Below are positions 20,283-59,710 of a stretch of 64,000 bases of DNA, in pieces. Source of the DNA: Bacteroides faecis MAJ27 (lineage in GTDB: Bacteria; Bacteroidota; Bacteroidia; Bacteroidales; Bacteroidaceae); NCBI RefSeq assembly GCF_900106755.1, contig NZ_FNNN01000001.1, positions 62,001 to 126,000 on the forward strand, read 5' to 3'. A program made the translations under genes and the position numbers. The notes under the pieces were generated by a model that saw only the letters and a program-made list of their open reading frames with translations, was not told the origin of the DNA and did not search any database. How positions within the stretch are numbered: position 1 is the stretch's first letter; each line of letters begins with the position of its first letter.

Positions 20283-20474
20283 GTTCCAGTATATTAATAA
20301 GCTAATCTATGCAATAAAGAAAATTGACTTAAAATAAATATAGTGGAGCTTATCAATGCACCAAGAGAGGCATACTCTTATAAAATTTCGCTACTATTCT
20401 TATTATCACTTGTCACTTTTCATCCCAACCACCTTTAAATCAACAAGTAACGAGTGACAATAGCCGGTGATAAT

Positions 20475-20514
20475 AAGGTGACAATAGAAGATTTCAACTT
20501 TCTATTGTCACCTT
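20475..20514. terminator. Hairpin between convergent genes; left end of VirE/HU cassette
   Basis: A perfect 15-bp stem, AAGGTGACAATAGAA (20475-20489) and its complement (20500-20514), with a 10-nt loop. It lies 15 bp after the VirE-like stop (minus strand) and beyond the MG2 stop (plus strand), so it could stop transcription from both sides. Extra copies of GTGACAATAG and GTGATAATA lie just left of it (20453-20476). Apart from these short repeats and the hairpins I see nothing in 20283-20528. Confidence 0.6.
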
Positions 20515-20528
20515 TCTCCCCTGCTCTT

Positions 20529-22607
20529 TTATAGTTTGGCAACCAGATACACCGTCCCCTTATTCGTATGTTTGCAGGGAATCTTCTCCTTCTGAAGCAG
20601 CCTTCCGAAATGGTACGCCTTCCCCGAAGACAATGTGATAGTCGTTCTTTTCTGTAGATAATCCAAAATCTCTACCGGAGACAAGTACTCCCCTTCCCCA
20701 TCCTCTTTGGCAGCTTTGAAGTAGTGATAGAACAACTGAATAGCCGGCGGAGTCTGTTCAAACTCCCGGTTAGCCTGTGTCAGGATAGCCTCATCCTTAT
20801 CATCAAACCAGTATCGTTCGCCATGATAAATTTCGTACATCGCCTGCGCATACAATTGCTGATAATCGATAGGACGTGCCGTATCGATCGTATCCTTTAC
20901 TTCAATGCAAATAAAACGGCGGCTGCCGGAAGGATCGGTCAACAAGTCCTTTTGATTGCTTGTTGCAATAAATGAAGCATAACGCTGCAACTCCTGCACC
21001 GAACTTCCATGCGGCTTACGAAGATTGACTACCGGCTTTTGCAGAATATGCTTCAAGAAGCCTTGCTGAGTCAAAGTCACCTGATCGAACTCATCAATAT
21101 TGATCAGCGCAAAACGATTCAGATACATTTCCGCATCCCGTTTGCGGCTGAAATCAATACTATCCGTATAATAACCCCGAAGCTCAGGCGGTATCAAGTC
21201 CCGGCAAAATGTGGATTTACGTGTTCCTTGTGCACCGACCAGCAATGGTGAAGTACTGTTCGCATGCTGTTTGTCAAATCCTCTCCAATGCGCCACCATG
21301 TTCAGAAACCAACGGTGGAAAAGCATTGTCCAGTGTGGATTGTCACAAGGAACCCGACCTGCCAACTCCGCAATACGGTCCTTCTGGTCCCAATTAGGAA
21401 GATGGAAGATAAACTCTTCCAACGGGTTGTAGACAGGGACACGGTTGGAATGCAAGTAACGGTCCACATCCCGGTCCCACACTGCGATTCCTTCACTTTG
21501 CGCATCCAGCAAAATACTGTTCTGTGCTCTCTTGTCCAACGGACGGAAACGGAAATAAAACGAACAGCGCTCCCTGTATTCCACTTCACTCATCTGAGTA
21601 TTGTAGCGAAACTCATAACGCCGGTTCATAAATTCTTCGGTCTGCATATTGAGATACTGCTCTTTTGTCAGACCGCCTTTCTTTCCGAACCCCTTGCACT
21701 CCTGATACACATTCCCTATCATCTCACGAACCAGCACCGACTGCCCGGAATCATAATACCGATGTATGGTCCGCCTGACCACCTCTTCTTCGGGAATACC
21801 GGAAAGAAAGCAGTTCTCCGCCAGCCTTACAACCATCGGTTGCAAATCATCATTCCGCCTCCATCCTTCCTCCATCGACTGAAAAGTTTTCCGCAAGGCA
21901 GCCTCATACATCAGTGCCAGCGCATCTTCTGCCGCATATCCCGGAACAGCGCGGTTCAATGGGGATTTTTCCGTCACCGTTCTCTCCCGATAAGTCATCT
22001 CCTTAGGCATCCCAAACGGTTGAGAAAGATAAAAAGGCACGGCGTTCTTCCGATAGAAAGGTGCCGGATCATAACTCAGCCGTGAATACTGCTCCAAAAG
22101 CGGCTCTTTCAACTGGATATCGAAAGGGATCTGCGGCTGATAACATTTCACAGCCAAACGATAAGCATGTGCCTGAAACAGTTCCGCTTCTTCCTGTGTT
22201 TGCGGCAATGTTCCGTCCGGACGGGTAAAAAGCGTCCATATCTTGACTGAATTTCCGCTCGACCCCATATAGGCAAACATCGTTTGTGGCAAGTCTGCCG
22301 CTTTTTTCTTGACCAATTCCACCTCTACCTTTCCAGCCAACGGGCCAACGGTCAATTCAACGATACCATTATAAACTTTCATCCGTCTCACGCCATTGAC
22401 ACGCCCGAAAACGGCAGCGGGCATTATTTTAGGAAGCTTTCCGGCAAAGCTGCAAGGCTCTCCGGGCAAAACAAAATGCAGGGCTTGGCGTAGTCCGGTC
22501 ACCGGGCGAGTCTTCGTCTCTGTTTTTATCTTCTCCATCAACAAGTCAAAATCTAATACACTCAGTGCTTCAGCGTCTTCTTTTTCCCTGATTTGTGTGA
22601 TCTTCAT
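20529..22607 (-). CDS. BT4734/VirE-like P-loop ATPase
   Basis: A 692-residue protein. The N-terminal about 150 residues match the BT4734-like/VirE N-terminal domain as I recall it. The central VirE/VapE-type P-loop domain has Walker A GAQGTRKST at 458-466 and Walker B ALINIDEFD around 500-508, followed by a sensor-like FIATSNQKDLL. The C-terminus (about 590-692, SPVEILDYLQKRTTITLSSG) looks like a DUF3874 domain. The family is related to phage and plasmid primase-helicase proteins; there is no signal peptide, so it is cytoplasmic. It is divergent from an HU-like gene, a pairing seen many times in Bacteroides genomes. Its function there is unknown and it has no evident link to pectin use. Confidence 0.85.
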   Translation of the reverse strand: MKITQIREKEDAEALSVLDFDLLMEKIKTETKTRPVTGLRQALHFVLPGEPCSFAGKLPKIMPAAVFGRVNGVRRMKVYNGIVELTVGPLAGKVEVELVKKKAADLPQTMFAYMGSSGNSVKIWTLFTRPDGTLPQTQEEAELFQAHAYRLAVKCYQPQIPFDIQLKEPLLEQYSRLSYDPAPFYRKNAVPFYLSQPFGMPKEMTYRERTVTEKSPLNRAVPGYAAEDALALMYEAALRKTFQSMEEGWRRNDDLQPMVVRLAENCFLSGIPEEEVVRRTIHRYYDSGQSVLVREMIGNVYQECKGFGKKGGLTKEQYLNMQTEEFMNRRYEFRYNTQMSEVEYRERCSFYFRFRPLDKRAQNSILLDAQSEGIAVWDRDVDRYLHSNRVPVYNPLEEFIFHLPNWDQKDRIAELAGRVPCDNPHWTMLFHRWFLNMVAHWRGFDKQHANSTSPLLVGAQGTRKSTFCRDLIPPELRGYYTDSIDFSRKRDAEMYLNRFALINIDEFDQVTLTQQGFLKHILQKPVVNLRKPHGSSVQELQRYASFIATSNQKDLLTDPSGSRRFICIEVKDTIDTARPIDYQQLYAQAMYEIYHGERYWFDDKDEAILTQANREFEQTPPAIQLFYHYFKAAKEDGEGEYLSPVEILDYLQKRTTITLSSGKAYHFGRLLQKEKIPCKHTNKGTVYLVAKL

Positions 22608-22804: not shown

Positions 22805-22892
22805 CGTTTTACGTACATGGTCCCATCGACTCACGTACGTGATCCTTCGGGTTCACGTATGTAGTCCGAACGGTTCACATACGTGGAACGAA
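22805..22892 (+). repeat. Four 22-bp tandem repeats with ACGTACGT core
   Basis: Four head-to-tail units of exactly 22 bp (22805-22826, 22827-22848, 22849-22870, 22871-22892). Each has a near-palindromic centre: ACGTACATG, CACGTACGTG, CACGTATGTA and CACATACGTG. They lie just after the predicted transcription start of the HU-like gene, so they are both a possible multi-site operator and a possible string of small RNA hairpins. The rest of the 22608-23019 gap holds the two divergent promoters and nothing else I recognise. Confidence 0.85.
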
Positions 22893-23019: not shown

Positions 23020-23631
23020 ATGGCAGCAGATTATGACTTTCGGAGAAAACCGAATGAGAAAGGAGATGAAGAGCTCCAACCATTATATCCTCGTATTGTA
23101 TCTAAAGGTACCATTGATTGCAAACGACTGTTTCGTGAAATATCCGAAGCGTCCACCTTTACCGAAGGTGACTTGGCAGGTATCATGGTATCTCTTCAAG
23201 AAAAAGTATCTTACTATCTGAGTGAAGGGTATCACGTGAAATTAGGAGAAATCGGATATTTCTCCGCAAGCTTGAAAGCACGTCCGGTTATGGATAAGAA
23301 AGAAATCCGTTCTGTCTCTATTTCTTTTGACAATGTCAATTTCAGAGCTACGAAGTGGTTTCGCCGACGAAGTTCGGGCACGGTGACCCGTGCCAAATTC
23401 GGATTTCAGGAATCATCAGATATGTCGGAAGAGACACGCCGCCTGCGTCTTGAAGCATTCTTAGCTAAAAACCATTTCATCACCCGTAGGGAATACAGCG
23501 GATTAACAGGTTTATTGAAAGGAAAAGCACAGCGGGAACTGAATCTTCTGGTAGAAAACGGAGTTCTTAACACTCGTGGGTATGGTAATCGGATTATATA
23601 CTTAAAATCTGAAAATCAGCCTATTAAATAA
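23020..23631 (+). CDS. HU-like DNA-binding protein with C-terminal winged-helix-like part
   Basis: A 203-residue basic protein. Residues about 20-120 fit the HU/IHF-like fold of the Bacteroidetes HU-HIG type (FTEGDLAGIMVSLQEKVSYY, VKLGEIGYFSASLKARP, FRATKWFRRR). Residues about 135-195 (LRLEAFLAKNHFITRREYSG, LLKGKAQRELNLLVENGVL) look like a winged helix. No signal peptide; a nucleoid-type or site-specific DNA binder is expected. It is divergently transcribed from the VirE-like gene across the palindromic array. I infer that it may bind these repeats and control its own transcription. Confidence 0.85.
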   Translation: MAADYDFRRKPNEKGDEELQPLYPRIVSKGTIDCKRLFREISEASTFTEGDLAGIMVSLQEKVSYYLSEGYHVKLGEIGYFSASLKARPVMDKKEIRSVSISFDNVNFRATKWFRRRSSGTVTRAKFGFQESSDMSEETRRLRLEAFLAKNHFITRREYSGLTGLLKGKAQRELNLLVENGVLNTRGYGNRIIYLKSENQPIK

Positions 23632-23647
23632 GAAAAGTATAAAACAG

Positions 23648-23686
23648 AGGTGATAATAGAAATGCTTGAAAATTCTATTATCACCT
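23648..23686. terminator. Hairpin after HU-like gene; right end of VirE/HU cassette
   Basis: A 14-bp stem, AGGTGATAATAGAA (23648-23661) and its complement (23673-23686), starts 17 nt after the HU stop. The stem differs from that of the 20475-20514 hairpin at one position of the shared core (GTGACAATAGAA versus GTGATAATAGAA). Further right, up to 23771, are more TTATCAC/GTGATAAGTGACAATAG words, including the palindrome TATCACAAGTGATA at 23749-23762. Confidence 0.6.
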
Positions 23687-23840
23687 TATTATCACTTCCT
23701 ATTATCACTTTTTATTTATCATTCTCACCTGATTACTAAACATTTATCTATCACAAGTGATAAGTGACAATAGAAAGAGACTTTTTTTCTATATGGGATT
23801 GTATTCAGTAAGTAATATTGTTTTTCTCACAATGAATCAT

Positions 23841-54259: not shown

Positions 54260-55661
54260 GAAAAGAATATATCTATTACTCACTCTGCTGGCCAGTTGCC
54301 TGTATTTGCAGGCAGCAACCTACAACGTCAGAGACTTCGGAGCAAAAGCGGACGGAAAGACTATTGACTCTCCCGCCATCAACCGTGCCATCGAAGCCGC
54401 GGCACAAGACGGCGGAGGCACCATATATCTTCCTGCCGGAGAATATGCCTGTTATTCCATCCGGCTGAAAAGCAACATCCATCTCTATCTGGAACAGGGC
54501 GCACGCATCATCGCCGCTTTCCCGGGCAAGGAGGAAGGATATGACCTGGCAGAGCCCAACGAGCATAATAAATATCAGGACTTCGGACACAGTCACTGGA
54601 AGAACTCGCTCATCTGGGGAATCGGTCTGGAAAATATCACCATCAGCGGTCCGGGACTGATCTATGGCAAGGGACTGACCCGTGAAGAAAGCCGTCTGCC
54701 GGGAGTAGGCAACAAAGCTATCAGCCTCAAAGACTGCCGGAATGTCACGCTGAAAGATTTCTCCATGCTCCATTGCGGACACTTCGCCCTGCTAGCCACC
54801 GGTGTGGAACATCTCACCCTGCTGAACCTGAAAGTAGATACCAACCGCGATGGATTCGATATCGACTGCTGCCGCAACGTACGCATCAGCCAATGCACGG
54901 TCAATTCTCCGTGGGATGATGCCATTGTTCTGAAAGCCTCTTATGCATTAGGACGTTTCAAAGATACGGAAAACGTAACGATCAGCGATTGCTACGTCAG
55001 CGGATTCGACAAAGGAAGTGTACTGGACGGAAGCTGGCAACTCGACGAACCACAGGCACCCGACCACGGATACCGCACCGGACGTATCAAGCTCGGAACG
55101 GAAAGCAGCGGAGGATTCCGCAACATCGCCATCACCAACTGTATATTCGAACATTGCCGGGGACTGGCACTCGAAAGCGTGGACGGCGGTCATCTGGAAG
55201 ACATCGTTATCAGCAATATTACCATGAGGAATATCGTGAACGCTCCTGTCTTCCTCCGGCTTGGCGCGCGAATGCGTAGCCCCGAAGGTACTCCCGCAGG
55301 AAGCATGAAACGCATTCTTATCAGCGACATCAACGTATGGAATGCCGACAGCCGTTATGCTTCTATCATCAGCGGCGTGCCCGGAACCTATATCGAGGAC
55401 GTGACTTTCCGCAACATTCATCTATATTATAAAGGTGGATATAGCGCGGAAGACGGCAAACGTGTTCCGCCCGAACAGGAGAAAGTATATCCCGAACCCT
55501 GGATGTTCGGCACGATTCCCGCCAAAGGATTTTATATCCGCCACGCAAAGAACATAACTTTCGACGGCATCCGCTTCCACTTTGAACAGCCGGACGGACG
55601 TCCGCTCTTCGTGACTGACGACGTAGAAAACATTGAATACTATCATACACCCACAGAATAA
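54240..55661 (+). CDS. GH28-family galacturonidase-like protein
   Basis: A 473-residue protein. The leader [13 protein letters not shown] can be read as a lipobox (LASC, Cys20) or as a normal signal peptide cut after LQA. Beta-helix with [20 protein letters not shown] and [12 protein letters not shown]. Catalytic set: Asp204 in NRDGFDID (NTD becomes NRD), Asp226-Asp227 in SPWDDAI; the region after it has KLGTESSGG, with no GHG motif seen. Such forms occur in RG-I-directed GH28 enzymes. Overlaps the upstream gene by 20 bp and shares one base with the ATG of GH106. Confidence 0.87.
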
Positions 55662-58426
55662 TGAATAAAAAACAACTGATATTCCTCTGCATGCTCGCAG
55701 CAGGCGGAAGTGTACAAGCACAACAGTGGCCGGATGCTCCGGCAGAAGCCCGCCCCGGCACCAGATGGTGGTGGCTGGGAAGCGCTGTCGACGAGAAGAA
55801 CCTGACTTACAATCTCGAAGAATACGCCCGTGCCGGCATGGGCGCCGTAGAAATCACTCCCATTTATGGAGTGCAGGGCAATGACGCCAACGATATTCAG
55901 TTTCTTTCTCCCCGATGGATGGAAGTGCTCAAACATACACAAGCGGAAGGAAAGCGCACCGGCATCGAGATCGACATGAATACCGGAACAGGATGGCCCT
56001 TCGGAGGACCGGAAGTCAGCATCGAAGAGGCAGCCAGCAAAGCTATCTTCCAGACGTATGAGATAGAGGGAGGCCAGGAAATCGTACAGGACATCAATGT
56101 AGCTGACAAGAAACAGCAACCTTATTCGGTATTGAGCCGCGTGATGGCCTATGACGGAAACGGGCGGTGCATCAATCTGACTTCCCATGTCAGGAAAGAC
56201 AAACTGGAATGGAAAGCTCCCGCCGGAAAATGGAAAGTGATAGCCCTTTATAACGGCAAGACACGGCAGAAGGTTAAACGTGCCGCTCCCGGAGGAGAAG
56301 GATACGTGATGAACCATCTTTCCAAAAGTGCGGTCAAAAGCTATCTTTCCCGGTTCGACCGCGCTTTCAAAAGCAGCAAGACGAGTTATCCGCATACATT
56401 CTTCAACGACTCCTACGAGGTATATCAGGCAGACTGGACAGAAGATTTTCTGGATCAGTTCGCCCGCAGGAGAGGATATAAGCTGGAAGAACACTTTCCG
56501 GAGTTCCTGGACGAAAGCCGTCCGGAAGTCAGCCGCCGCATCATATCCGATTACCGGGAAACGATTTCCGATTTACTGCTGGAAAACTTTACCCGTCAAT
56601 GGACGGACTGGGCACACAAGAACGGAAGCATCACCCGCAATCAGGCACACGGATCGCCTGCCAACCTGATTGATGTTTACGCAGCCGTAGACATTCCCGA
56701 ATGTGAAGGATTCGGTCTGTCTCAATTCCATATCAAAGGATTACGCCGGGATTCACTGACCAAGAAGAATGATTCGGACTTGTCGATGTTGAAATATGCC
56801 TCTTCTGCTGCCCATATTGCTGGAAAGCCCTATACTTCTACCGAGACATTTACATGGCTGACGGAGCATTTCCGCACTTCCTTGTCGCAATGCAAACCGG
56901 ATATGGACCTGATGTTTGTTTCCGGCATCAATCATATGTTCTTTCACGGAACTCCCTATTCGCCCCAAGAAGCCGAATGGCCGGGATGGCTGTTTTACGC
57001 CTCTATCAATATGAGCCCGACCAACAGTATCTGGCACGACGCTCCTTCTTTCTTCGATTATATCACCCGTTGCCAGAGTTTCCTGCAAATGGGTAAACCG
57101 GATAATGACTTCCTTATCTATCTGCCCGTCTATGATATGTGGGAGGAGCAGCCGGGACGTTTGCTGCTATTCAGCATTCATCACATGGACAAACTCGCCC
57201 CCAAATTTATAAATGCCATCCACCGCATCAACAACAGCGGATATGACGGAGATTATATCTCTGACAACTTCATCCGCAGCACCCGTTTCAAAGACGGCCA
57301 GTTAGTCACTTCCGGCGGAACCGGCTACAAAGCACTGGTTGTGCCCGCCGCCCACTTAATGCCGAATGACGTTCTGGCTCATCTGCTGAAACTGGCGCAA
57401 CAAGGAGCTACCATCGTATTCCTCGAAAACTACCCGACAGACGTGCCGGGATACGGTCAGCTGGAACAGAAGCGCAAGACTTATCAACAAACGCTGCAAA
57501 AGCTGCCTTCCGTATCATTCTCCGAAACAACGGTCACCCCGGTGGGAAAAGGCAAGATCATTACAGGAACGGACTATGCACGCACTTTGGCGAGTTGCAA
57601 TATTCCGCAGGAAGAAATGAAAACCAGGTTCGGACTGCAAGCTATCCGAAGGGTGAACGATAACGGCCACCATTATTTCATCTCTTCCCTCCAAGATAAA
57701 GGAGTGGATGATTGGGTGACACTGGGAACAAAAGCCGAAGCCGCCGCCCTCTTCAATCCCATGACAGGCGAATGCGGAGAAGCACGTATACGCCAGACTG
57801 GAGATCAGACACAAGTCTACCTCCAGTTGAAATCCGGTGAATCGGTGATTTTGCAGACTTATCAACAGCCGTTGACAGGCGCCAAATCATGGAAATACAT
57901 TCAGGAACAACCGTTCAGCCTCAGCCTGAATCATGGCTGGAAACTGCATTTTGCCGAAAGCCAGCCGGAAATAAAAGGTACATTCAACATCGACCGCCCT
58001 TGTTCGTGGACGGCCATTGACCATCCGGCAGCCAAAACCAATATGGGAACCGGTGTTTATTCATTGGACATCGAATTGCCTGCCTTGCAAGCTGACGACT
58101 GGGTGCTCGACTTAGGAGATGTCCGCGAAAGTGCCCGTGTCCGGATCAACGGACAGGAAGCAGGCTGCGCATGGGCAGTACCTTATCAGCTAAGGGTAGG
58201 CCATCTGCTGAAATCAGGAAAAAACCACATCGAGATAGAAGTCACCAACCTTCCTGCCAACCGAATAGCCGAACTGGACAGGCAGGGAGTGCAGTGGCGC
58301 AAATTCAAGGAGATCAATATCGTCGATCTGAACTATCGTCCGGCTAACTACGGTCATTGGGCTCCCATGCCTTCGGGACTAAATAGTGAAGTCCGGCTGA
58401 TTCCGGTAGATTATTTATCTTTTTAG
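55661..58426 (+). CDS. GH106-family alpha-L-rhamnosidase
   Basis: A 921-residue protein with signal peptide (SVQAQQ). GH106 marks are TRWWWLGSAVDEKNL, ARAGMGAVEITPIYG and EIDMNTGTGWPFGGP near the N-terminus, and ETFTWLTEHFRTSLSQCKPD with NHMFFHGTPYSP in the TIM barrel. The C-terminal about 150 residues are a GH2-like galactose-binding domain (WVLDLGDVRESARVRINGQE). GH106 enzymes remove rhamnose, and in Bacteroides RG-I loci they act on the Rha-GalA backbone after GalA or side chains are gone. Last gene of the six-gene operon; followed by a clear terminator. Confidence 0.92.
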   Translation: MNKKQLIFLCMLAAGGSVQAQQWPDAPAEARPGTRWWWLGSAVDEKNLTYNLEEYARAGMGAVEITPIYGVQGNDANDIQFLSPRWMEVLKHTQAEGKRTGIEIDMNTGTGWPFGGPEVSIEEAASKAIFQTYEIEGGQEIVQDINVADKKQQPYSVLSRVMAYDGNGRCINLTSHVRKDKLEWKAPAGKWKVIALYNGKTRQKVKRAAPGGEGYVMNHLSKSAVKSYLSRFDRAFKSSKTSYPHTFFNDSYEVYQADWTEDFLDQFARRRGYKLEEHFPEFLDESRPEVSRRIISDYRETISDLLLENFTRQWTDWAHKNGSITRNQAHGSPANLIDVYAAVDIPECEGFGLSQFHIKGLRRDSLTKKNDSDLSMLKYASSAAHIAGKPYTSTETFTWLTEHFRTSLSQCKPDMDLMFVSGINHMFFHGTPYSPQEAEWPGWLFYASINMSPTNSIWHDAPSFFDYITRCQSFLQMGKPDNDFLIYLPVYDMWEEQPGRLLLFSIHHMDKLAPKFINAIHRINNSGYDGDYISDNFIRSTRFKDGQLVTSGGTGYKALVVPAAHLMPNDVLAHLLKLAQQGATIVFLENYPTDVPGYGQLEQKRKTYQQTLQKLPSVSFSETTVTPVGKGKIITGTDYARTLASCNIPQEEMKTRFGLQAIRRVNDNGHHYFISSLQDKGVDDWVTLGTKAEAAALFNPMTGECGEARIRQTGDQTQVYLQLKSGESVILQTYQQPLTGAKSWKYIQEQPFSLSLNHGWKLHFAESQPEIKGTFNIDRPCSWTAIDHPAAKTNMGTGVYSLDIELPALQADDWVLDLGDVRESARVRINGQEAGCAWAVPYQLRVGHLLKSGKNHIEIEVTNLPANRIAELDRQGVQWRKFKEINIVDLNYRPANYGHWAPMPSGLNSEVRLIPVDYLSF

Positions 58427-58487
58427 ACACACTGAAGTTATTATCTAAATCTACTCTCAGTTCAAGATAAGGCAATATACCTTGATT

Positions 58488-58518
58488 CCCCTCTTTTCAA
58501 AAAGGAGGGGATTTTTTT
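58488..58518 (+). terminator. Intrinsic terminator after GH106
   Basis: CCCCTC (58488-58493) pairs with GAGGGG (58505-58510) and is followed by a seven-T run, 61 nt after the stop codon. Confidence 0.85.
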
Positions 58519-58540
58519 GCTCTCAACAGTAATTATGCAC

Positions 58541-59014
58541 GACTTTTGCTCCCATGCTCTCACTATCCGTCTGTATCCTCCTGTTCATCGGCGTTACAGT
58601 GATGAGAGCGAATGTGGTAGCAGAGTGAGAGATAACTGTTGCCCTCACTTTGTATCATCCAGGTTTCGCAGAGCCCTTTACACCAGGGGAGTCAATCGAA
58701 GTAGTTTCATATAGGGAAACTAAAAGTTTCAAGTAATGAAACCAAGAGTTTCAAGCAGAAGAAACTGTTGTTTCAAGCGGGGAAACTAAAGTTTCAAGCC
58801 ATGTGGAACTGAAGTTTCAAACGGTAAGAAACTGTTGTTTCACCGCATGAAACCGGTATTTGAACTATATCGAATGAATAACCGCTAAGAACCTGCGATC
58901 TGAACAGTGAGAGCAACAGCTTGCTCTCACTCTGCTACCACATTCGCTCTCATCACTGTAATACCGATGAACAGGAGGATACAGACGAATAGTGAGAGCA
59001 TGGGAGCAAAACTC
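58541..59014. repeat. 474-bp inverted-repeat element
   Basis: Two arms of about 108 bp, 58541-58648 and 58907-59014, are inverted copies of each other with only about eight differences by eye. Their inner ends form smaller hairpins: AGTGAGAGCAA pairs with its exact complement at 58906-58931. Between the arms lies an array of 22-bp palindromes. No transposase or other credible gene is inside. The element fills most of the 635-bp gap between GH106 and the next gene; apart from it I see only the GH106 terminator there. Confidence 0.9.
58703..58853. repeat. Array of GTTTC...GAAAC palindromes, 22-bp period
   Basis: GTTTC half-sites begin at 58703, 58726, 58748, 58770, 58791, 58814 and 58837. GAAAC half-sites begin at 58716, 58738, 58761, 58782, (degenerate) 58805, 58828 and 58849. 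The period is 21-23 bp, and each unit reads about GAAACTnnnGTTTCAAGnnnn, so each is a small dyad. Confidence 0.9.
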
Positions 59015-59061
59015 ATATTAAATCTATTGGGAGAGATAAATTAGTTGAAACAGAGTTAAGT

Positions 59062-59388
59062 TCAACCGATTTCCTCTTCATTCGACTTCGTTTGTTCTGT
59101 TTGTAATTCTTTCAATTTTATGATTTCTATAGCATTCTGAACATATTCCCGTGTCAATACCAAACGGGCCATAACACGATCCGAGCAGGGTGATGCATCA
59201 TCTACAAACTCATCAATAAGGACATTAAGGAAACAAAGTGTGCAATTAAGATCCTGTTTTGACGACTCATCAATACTTTCAATTTGTCCAAAGCTGGGCC
59301 AGTTGTCTTTAAGAAAGGCAAGTTTATCGGTGGTGTTCTGCAAATCAGTCTTCATCAAGCAGGTACCGGAACAAGTAGGGTCATCCAT
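59062..59388 (-). CDS. Small Cys-containing protein of unknown function
   Basis: ATG 59388 is used (108 residues, beginning MDDPTCSGTC); an upstream ATG at 59424 would lie in a hairpin. No signal peptide or membrane segment. It is acidic and mostly helical, with Cys residues in CSGTC, NCTLC and SPCSD. The C-terminal helix ARLVLTREYVQNAIEIIKLK is probably amphipathic or coiled. I do not recognise the family. The A/T-rich leader just before the ATG (AAACAAATAATT) is typical for a well-translated Bacteroides gene, which supports a real CDS. Confidence 0.6.
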   Translation of the reverse strand: MDDPTCSGTCLMKTDLQNTTDKLAFLKDNWPSFGQIESIDESSKQDLNCTLCFLNVLIDEFVDDASPCSDRVMARLVLTREYVQNAIEIIKLKELQTEQTKSNEEEIG

Positions 59389-59421
59389 AATTATTTGTTT
59401 TTTTATTTGTGTGTATTTCCG

Positions 59422-59617
59422 CACGCTTTCAAAAGAAAAGCGTGGAAACTATTACCACATTACCCCTCGCTGGCTCTGGTAGGGCCGTACTCGAATAATA
59501 AGCAATAGCTCCACACCCATGAGGCATATAACATATATATATACAACAGAGACGTGGAGAATGGTTACTTATTATCTGCGAGCTTCAAATTTACCAGATT
59601 TGCGAAACAGATAATAA
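59422..59617 (-). other. Structured region upstream of the small Cys protein
   Basis: On the minus strand this stretch has a TAAATTTG -7-like box (59586-59593), which lies inside the loop of a 10-bp inverted repeat (TTATTATCTG at 59569-59578 with its complement at 59608-59617). It also has a CTCCAC/GTGGAG pair around 59511-59558 and an 8-bp hairpin CACGCTTT/AAAGCGTG at 59422-59444, about 35 nt before the ATG. No ORF or known RNA family was recognised. It could be a long regulated leader or a small RNA. Confidence 0.4.
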
Positions 59618-59635
59618 ATACGCTATCCCCAAAAT

Positions 59636-59666
59636 AAAAAAGCGTAGCTCCTTTGCAGAGATACGC
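59636..59666 (-). terminator. Intrinsic terminator after the phosphoesterase remnant
   Basis: Minus strand: GCGTA/TACGC with inner CTC/GAG (59642-59666), directly followed by TTTTTTATTTT. It lies 45 nt after the pseudogene stop. Confidence 0.75.
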
Positions 59667-59710
59667 CACAAATATAGTTATATTTTCCGATATTGAAACT
59701 TTGGTGAGTA

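Follow-up and report, generated by a model that had tools for sequence, protein, structure and literature searches.

A gene-free inverted-repeat element of Bacteroides faecis that shares the plan of chromosomal VapE(-HU) cassettes

Results

Two matched arms enclose a palindrome array

The element occupies positions 58541-59014 of the window, by which we mean the whole stretch of 64,000 nucleotides of Bacteroides faecis DNA analysed here. Just before it, a GH106 gene (55661-58426) is followed by a hairpin that looks like a terminator (by eye). The element has the following parts.

58511..58540, minus strand: weak outward continuation of the left arm (14/30 bases match the right side)
58541..58649, minus strand: left arm, family A (GTGAGAGCA words), 109 bp, hairpin side toward the array (inverted-repeat search)
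58545..58563, minus strand: outer tandem motif of the left arm (motif scan; G000:C38:120545-120563)
58704..58853, no strand: array of 14 alternating GTTTC/GAAAC half-sites, i.e. 7 dyads with a period of about 22 bp (from the sequence)
58906..59014, plus strand: right arm, family A, 109 bp, hairpin side toward the array (inverted-repeat search)
58907..58930, plus strand: inner hairpin of the right arm, GTGAGAGCAA-CAGC-TTGCTCTCAC (read from the sequence)
58992..59010, plus strand: outer tandem motif of the right arm, GTGAGAGCATGGGAGCAAA (motif scan; G000:C38:120992-121010, offset 62000)
59015..59044, plus strand: weak outward continuation of the right arm (base comparison)

The original prediction described arms of about 108 bp with over 90% identity around seven dyads spaced at 21 to 23 bp, and both parts of this description hold. 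The arms are 93% complementary and 256 nt apart in the inverted-repeat search, and base by base 101 of 109 positions are identical, against 14 of the next 30 outward. They are nearer to each other (93%) than to any other arm in the same genome (best 87%). GTTTC starts at 58704, 58726, 58748, 58770, 58791, 58814 and 58837 (steps of 22, 22, 22, 21, 23 and 23), with GAAAC or GGAAC between these sites and a mean half-site spacing of 11.15 bp. Folded as single-stranded DNA, positions 58535-59020 reached -155.4 kcal/mol, compared with -52.2 (sd 4.5) for 100 dinucleotide shuffles (z -23; 0/100 as good).

The further claim that no ORF explains the element also stands, the single frame of at least 60 aa that overlaps it (65 aa, 58517-58714) merely crossing the left arm. 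A protein-coding reading of the arms was rejected: a short frame (MNKGIQ...) present in some copies is broken by stops in others (by eye), so that the repeat is not explained by codons. Transcription termination, judged by eye, was set aside as well, the arm hairpins being without a T-run. An Rfam search of 58000-59700 gave no match at E≤1.

Between the element and an aminotransferase gene lies a 120-aa ORF (59062-59424) with no Pfam or NCBIfam match at E≤0.001 and no DNA match over it among the matches listed for the sampled genomes of the genus. Further to the right, positions 59433-59694 match several other Bacteroides genomes at unrelated places and are either another dispersed intergenic sequence or a conserved leader, with no Rfam match at E≤1.

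A complete VapE-HU cassette in the same window

The window also contains a complete cassette (20.4-23.8 kb) in the order arm, VapE, array, HU-HIG, arm.

20394..20513, minus strand: arm on the VapE side, GTGACAATAG words (locus own_w, +16 to +135 after the VapE stop)
20529..22607, minus strand: VapE gene (BT4734-like_N, VapE-like, DUF3874; fold)
22810..22890, no strand: palindrome array, CACGTACGTG word (from the sequence; right part by eye)
23020..23631, plus strand: HU-HIG gene (Pfam/NCBIfam)
23647..23778, plus strand: arm on the HU side (locus own_w, -1171 to -1040)

The element had been said to repeat the plan of this cassette, there called 'VirE/HU', and it does so. The name itself is corrected: the protein is composed of BT4734-like_N, VapE-like and DUF3874 domains (Pfam) and is structurally a PriRep1-type initiator. 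Gut Bacteroides commonly carry genes for VapE/BT4734 and HU-HIG proteins, and other work on HU-HIG proteins exists; we know of no established role for either gene.

The C-terminal half of VapE matches PriRep1 (7pds) in sequence (E 1.6e-9). The AlphaFold model of the protein (mean pLDDT 76) matches it in fold (Foldseek E 4.4e-11), with Z 21.2 over 356 residues for residues 308-692, the next family being NrS-1 (Z 13.3); SaPI5 primase-helicase entries also match VapE. The Walker A K-S-T and Walker B D-E residues are invariant in 43/43 VapE sequences, in which no conserved DxD occurs at the motif I position and no His in the motif II stretch. BT4734-like proteins are counted as an archaeo-eukaryotic primase family, with motifs given, in a passage of PMC5862659. 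As judged from the 43 sequences, the N-terminal primase-like domain of VapE is without the usual catalytic residues. Given the PriRep1 match, the missing N-terminal motifs and the invariant Walker motifs, the active part is likely an initiator helicase, and priming may have been lost. For the N-terminal half we claim no fold beyond the Pfam match, as the structure comparison barely tests that domain.

VapE matches at E≤1e-5 were found in 56 of 72,556 plasmid records (6 covering at least 80%; one, H2, carries priA) and in 304 of 50,697 phage records (7 covering at least 80%), and IMG/VR yielded relatives at 3 loci. From these counts we concluded that VapE is mainly chromosomal, and a phage or plasmid element was rejected as an explanation.

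Arms and arrays of VapE(-HU) cassettes vary in words and keep their plan

A search of GTDB genomes with a VapE profile built from five proteins gave 152 relatives, and the top 80 were used; these are mostly from Bacteroides, with a few from Phocaeicola, Mediterranea, Parabacteroides and other Bacteroidales. They include near-duplicates (e.g. L089/L090), so locus counts are not counts of independent events. Together with five further loci, own_w and own_L029 among them, they made 85, and 77 remained after eight with short flanks were dropped. When the stretch after VapE was compared with the stretch before it, matching inverted arms at 40 bits or more were found at 38/77 loci, against 2/77 when the 3' side was paired with the 5' side of a random other locus; the remaining 39 had no 40-bit arm pair. 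Ranking was done for 37 of the 38 armed loci (own_L029, with a 3' arm starting at +78, was dropped), and the cognate 5' arm came first of 37 at 24 loci and within the top four at all 37.

The complete plan is arm, optional HU-HIG, palindrome array of about 22-bp period, VapE, arm, the arms being inverted with their hairpin sides toward the array. Measured from the end of the VapE match, which is a few bases off the stop, the 3' arm starts within 1-51 bp (37 loci with a 3' arm within 60 bp). The 5' arm ends 872-1196 bp before VapE where HU lies in between, as it does at 15/37 armed loci, and 232-574 bp before VapE where HU is absent, apart from three loci at 1307-2877 bp. At 34/37 armed loci, all but L101, L148 and L150 with their distant 5' arm, VapE, alone or together with HU, appears to take up nearly all the space between the arms. 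No transposase or integrase was seen between the arms, nor any amidase gene of the kind named in the original prediction.

Arm words vary widely among cassettes (GTGACAATAG, GTGACGGCA, GTGAGGGCA, GTGATAGGT, GTGTGTAAGAT, GTGCTGGCA, GTGACGACC), and by eye the arm plan is largely retained: an inner hairpin, further copies, about 35 bp and, outermost, a tandem pair. Array words differ too, again on a constant plan. After three of the 85 loci were dropped, arrays upstream of VapE, scored as exact-word chains with two or more dyads at a spacing of 20-24.5 bp, were found at 24/82 loci, compared with 3/1640 dinucleotide shuffles, 0/82 VapE coding stretches and 0-1/82 at each of four other periods; by this strict score 58/82 loci had no periodic pair. 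It was used in place of an earlier, weaker score by which 5/80 loci exceeded the shuffle maximum. Arms tend to be more alike where the VapE proteins are (Spearman coefficients of 0.36-0.44 depending on the domain, with the largest for the C-terminal DUF3874; 0/500 permutations), in a set that includes L157 (2 stops) and L146 (28 stops, naive frame), whose poor translations dilute the correlation.

VapE genes are interrupted or internally deleted in places. At L048 and L049 (G000:C58:39300-55824) a VapE gene 79-82% identical to that of the window is split by about 14 kb, and a serine-recombinase-like frame starts beside one of the breaks (by eye).

The element belongs to a dispersed intergenic family in its own genome

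The original prediction would have fallen had the arms been unique. In the element's own genome (G000; 5.96 Mb in 76 contigs) there are instead 58 matches to its 474 bp, grouped into 28 places, namely 27 loci and the window copy. At 15 of the 28, a GTTTC array is followed by a single family A arm, always oriented the same way, and the two are separated by a spacer and by an AT-rich TTAAT array of about 22-bp period. The window copy has a family A arm on each side. Two family A arms enclose VapE at L019, and two family B arms (GTGACRGCA words) do so at L029; L033 has two B arms and is gene-free, and L026 has two arms of different families. One B arm each is present at L022, L027 and L032, one arm of other families each at L028 and L031, and a truncated A end at L034, and no arms were seen at L025 and L030. 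Arms of families other than A were recognised by eye, save those scored at a shared site in G011, G008 and G020 (see below).

Relatives with genes between the arms, which the original prediction proposed to look for, thus exist: besides VapE at L019, same-family arms enclose VapE and HU in other genomes at L116, L120, L124, L135 and L214 (HU by eye at the last). L213 is probably the same cassette as L120, and L209 the same as L117; no count mixes them.

On the far side of 12 single-armed family A units, a second arm of another family is present at L008 and L013 (by eye) and none was seen in the other 10, for one of which (L012) less than 200 bp was available. The remaining three (L015, L016 and L020) are cut on that side by contig ends. 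At L010 (4320-4389) and in other single-armed units, the second, AT-rich array is formed by TCAnnnATTAATnnnTGA palindromes at a 22-bp period (by eye).

By ORF picking the 27 loci are intergenic apart from L009, L017 and L028, where an ORF starts inside the arm, a 122-aa ORF lies over the locus and an ORF overlaps by 32 bp, respectively. The ORF at L009 (4873-7959) has 1028 aa, and since it begins within the family A arm, the gene downstream could take its start or N-terminus from this arm. The armless array of L030 (4507-4635; G000:C38), of GTTTC/GAAAC type, lies between genes that read like nuoK and nuoL (by eye).

Arm families are distributed unevenly among related genomes

The family A outer motif, which marks arm ends, occurs 19 times in G000, 11 times in G043, 8 in G011, 7 in G029 and 5 in G008, and not in the five other genomes of the genus scanned; the reversed motif gave 0 in all 10. 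Each genome with family A shows its own variant words. Family B was counted 9 times in G000, 7 in G011, 6 each in G043 and G008, 5 in G020, 3 in G046 and once each in G041 and G056, with 0 in G029 and G052 and 0 or 1 per genome for the reversed control. Among 295 genomes of the order, the family A motif was found in the element's own genome and as 6 single matches in other genera, compared with 3 matches of the reversed control; outside the genus it is at noise level. The genus and order scans are samples of larger groups. An exact 22-mer of the arm end matched 0 stretches in GTDB genomes, from which the element's own and near records may be excluded, and this word varies between species.

Compared with VapE arms, the gene-free arms of G000 gave values of 0.782 for its own genome, 0.792 for G008 and 0.791 for G043. 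By this measure the VapE arms of G000 are not their clear nearest match, which counts against membership in the cassette family.

Orthologous sites hold different arms and arrays

At one orthologous intergenic site, the matching flanks are just 28 bp apart in G000 and about 1 kb apart in G043, where a single A arm accompanies a GGGAA/TTCCC array. At the same site G020 carries a GTTTC array whose left arm is most similar to VapE arms of G020 itself (score 48, compared with 32 at most for arms of other genomes) and whose right arm belongs to a different family. In G011, B-type arms flank a GTTTC array (score 76; best shuffle 22), and in G008 a GTGCACTCTAGTGCAC array is flanked by arms from a further family (score 100; best shuffle 27), with other open frames to the right. 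Next to its GTTTC array, G011 (L279) has a distinct tandem repeat, CTATnTTTTGCTATCTTAA-like and of about 20-24 bp (by eye). A base-by-base comparison at the near-empty G000 site revealed no target-site duplication or clean insertion, at a resolution set by the 28 bp of its own sequence that this site keeps and by the inexact definition of the element ends.

Modules also differ elsewhere. L194 (G043) and L242 (G020) have their array in common (84%) and carry A-type and B-type arms, respectively. At the window's own site, GH106 and aminotransferase genes are about 375 bp apart in G020 with no such element (by eye), and in G052 the site carries a TGGCAC/GTGCCA array together with an arm from a different family, with ATGAGAGAT words (by eye). 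A VapE cassette common to G043 and G008 is 92-98% identical in pieces and internally deleted in G043; its right flank is shared and its left flank differs, the divergence beginning about 21 bp past the arm.

In G043, five of the ten family A loci tested with Rfam lie upstream of 16S genes (the eleventh, L190, was outside the test). L013, L015 and L020 of G000 match the flank or leader of these units with a different array word, and L016, at a contig end, is a unit of the same kind; the four G000 contigs concerned end before any 16S gene. Among the six G043 loci away from rrn, only L199 matched the flanks of an examined G000 locus, L011, where a unit lies between the same genes with a different array. 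L202 and L212 lack 3 kb of DNA in which G000 has the L018 element together with two genes, and the flanks of L200 are 4.4-5.1 kb apart in G000 and G020 with no family A motif between them in either.

Discussion

We interpret the element, which lacks genes, as non-autonomous and as belonging to a large family of VapE(-HU) cassettes in Bacteroides chromosomes, moved or exchanged without an evident recombinase, and give this interpretation a probability of about 0.58. It builds on the common plan, the arms matched within each cassette, the dispersal of the family in its own genome, the lineage-specific sets of copies and the differing modules at orthologous sites. The original prediction of a stripped, non-autonomous relative is largely upheld and is the best reading, because the plan is the same and same-family arms bracket VapE at L019 and VapE with HU elsewhere. 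Simple internal deletion is not the whole story, since many relatives have one arm or arms of two families, and a full-length ancestor of exactly the window copy was not found. Several observations weigh against the cassette family: the correlation between VapE and arms is just moderate, as shared descent alone would give; the second arm that a two-ended transposon needs is not visible in 10 of 12 single-armed units; about half of the VapE loci have no detected arm pair, and no target duplication was seen; and rrn-upstream positions shared between species fit a host function equally well.

Action of VapE on the arms, and the way in which copies arise, can be sketched as follows. VapE from a cassette with the matching arm word would bind the repeated short motifs of the arms, as suggested by arm similarity following VapE similarity, and would open or copy the DNA between them. 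HU-HIG, or some other dimeric protein that contacts a single face of the helix, might coat the array. Host recombination could then establish the exposed or copied DNA at an orthologous site or a new one; we invoke it because no transposase or integrase was seen between the arms. A bolder proposal, which we regard as tentative, is a type of mobile element with neither a transposase or integrase nor an HUH nuclease. Its initiator helicase, of PriRep type, would act on its own inverted multi-motif arms and would spread or exchange gene-free arm-array-arm units as well as itself, and families and species would swap arm and array specificities with one another as modules.

An unlikely alternative is that the units are host chromosomal sites for nucleoid organisation or for insulation of replication or transcription, kept at set places while their words change with the evolving binding proteins, VapE cassettes being one context among others. 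The units upstream of 16S genes at five of ten G043 loci and their counterparts at L013, L015, L020 and, at a contig end, L016 would be expected of such sites, as would the unit between the same genes at L199 and L011, the armless array between the nuoK-like and nuoL-like genes at L030, and the array kept under a changed arm family at L194/L242. Yet most family A sites differ between G000 and G043, with matched flanks for one of six G043 loci away from rrn; the related complete genome G020 is without the family A outer motif, and one orthologous site in G000 is near-empty. Less likely still is a small replication origin, in which the array would be iterons, the neighbouring AT-rich 22-bp TTAAT array the unwinding region and the inward arms initiator sites or polar fork barriers, and VapE would fire local replication. 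A PriRep1-type initiator, the AT-rich second array beside the 22-bp array in single-armed G000 units (by eye) and the inverted, multi-motif arms suit an origin, but the window copy has no AT-rich array, gene-free units have no VapE beside them, and dozens of chromosomal origins would be odd.

Slightly less probable still is plain decay, by which fragments of old cassettes or integrated satellites persist by chance and homologous exchange with no present activity. Intergenic placement of the 27 loci, small ORF overlaps aside, the truncated arm at L034 and the interrupted or internally deleted VapE genes are what decay would leave behind; the arms of the window copy, however, resemble each other more closely than any other G000 arm, and the arm plan is intact while the words change.

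For VapE/BT4734 and HU-HIG genes, these data supply a cassette plan with two testable cis parts, the arms and the array, and tie these genes to dozens of gene-free intergenic units, some of which precede rRNA operons. Should VapE move or exchange the units, a replication initiator would be driving the spread of DNA without a recombinase; should they be host sites, they would represent a fast-evolving chromosome architecture.

Comparison with known systems

Like REPIN/RAYT systems, the family is dispersed and intergenic and has inverted hairpin ends. REPINs reach hundreds of copies, whereas here there are tens; the arms here are about 110 bp long with several motif copies, their words start with GTGA rather than carrying the GTAG tag, and a palindrome array stands in the centre. 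The enzyme differs too, being an HUH transposase there and a VapE/PriRep-type helicase here: no cognate HUH (Y1, IS200/IS605-like) transposase gene lies between the arms, where the gene is VapE. A further likeness lies in related ends beside the gene of a putative mobilising enzyme and in co-evolution of enzyme and repeat, as described for REPIN/RAYT in PMC3116915 and PMC8266576.

By the definition given in a passage of PMC3116915, the element also resembles MITEs, being about 0.5 kb long, gene-free, intergenic and present in many copies, with short inverted terminal arms and a gene-bearing relative with the same ends. It differs in that no target-site duplication was seen at the one near-empty site compared and in that the gene-bearing relatives have no visible transposase; the parents with such ends carry VapE with or without HU (34/37 armed loci). 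The family resembles REPINs and MITEs, yet the enzyme that defines either was not seen between the arms.

With SaPI/PICI satellites the VapE-bearing relatives, and only these, share a PriRep-type initiator, the C-terminal half of VapE matching PriRep1 in sequence and fold. The cassettes differ from such satellites in measuring about 2.5-3.4 kb, with an arm at each end and VapE, alone or together with HU, taking up the interior, in showing no integrase or packaging gene, and in having only 3 relatives in IMG/VR. BT4734/BF3469-family (VirE_N) and HU-HIG are the names of the cassette genes in Pfam and plasmid annotation, and we recognised no paper in the open-licence PMC literature that describes the arms, the arrays or the gene-free relatives. 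Set beside the VapE(-HU) cassettes themselves, the window element has the inward-facing matching arms around a palindrome array and is gene-free where they hold VapE; it is a derivative or relative of these cassettes, not a complete member.
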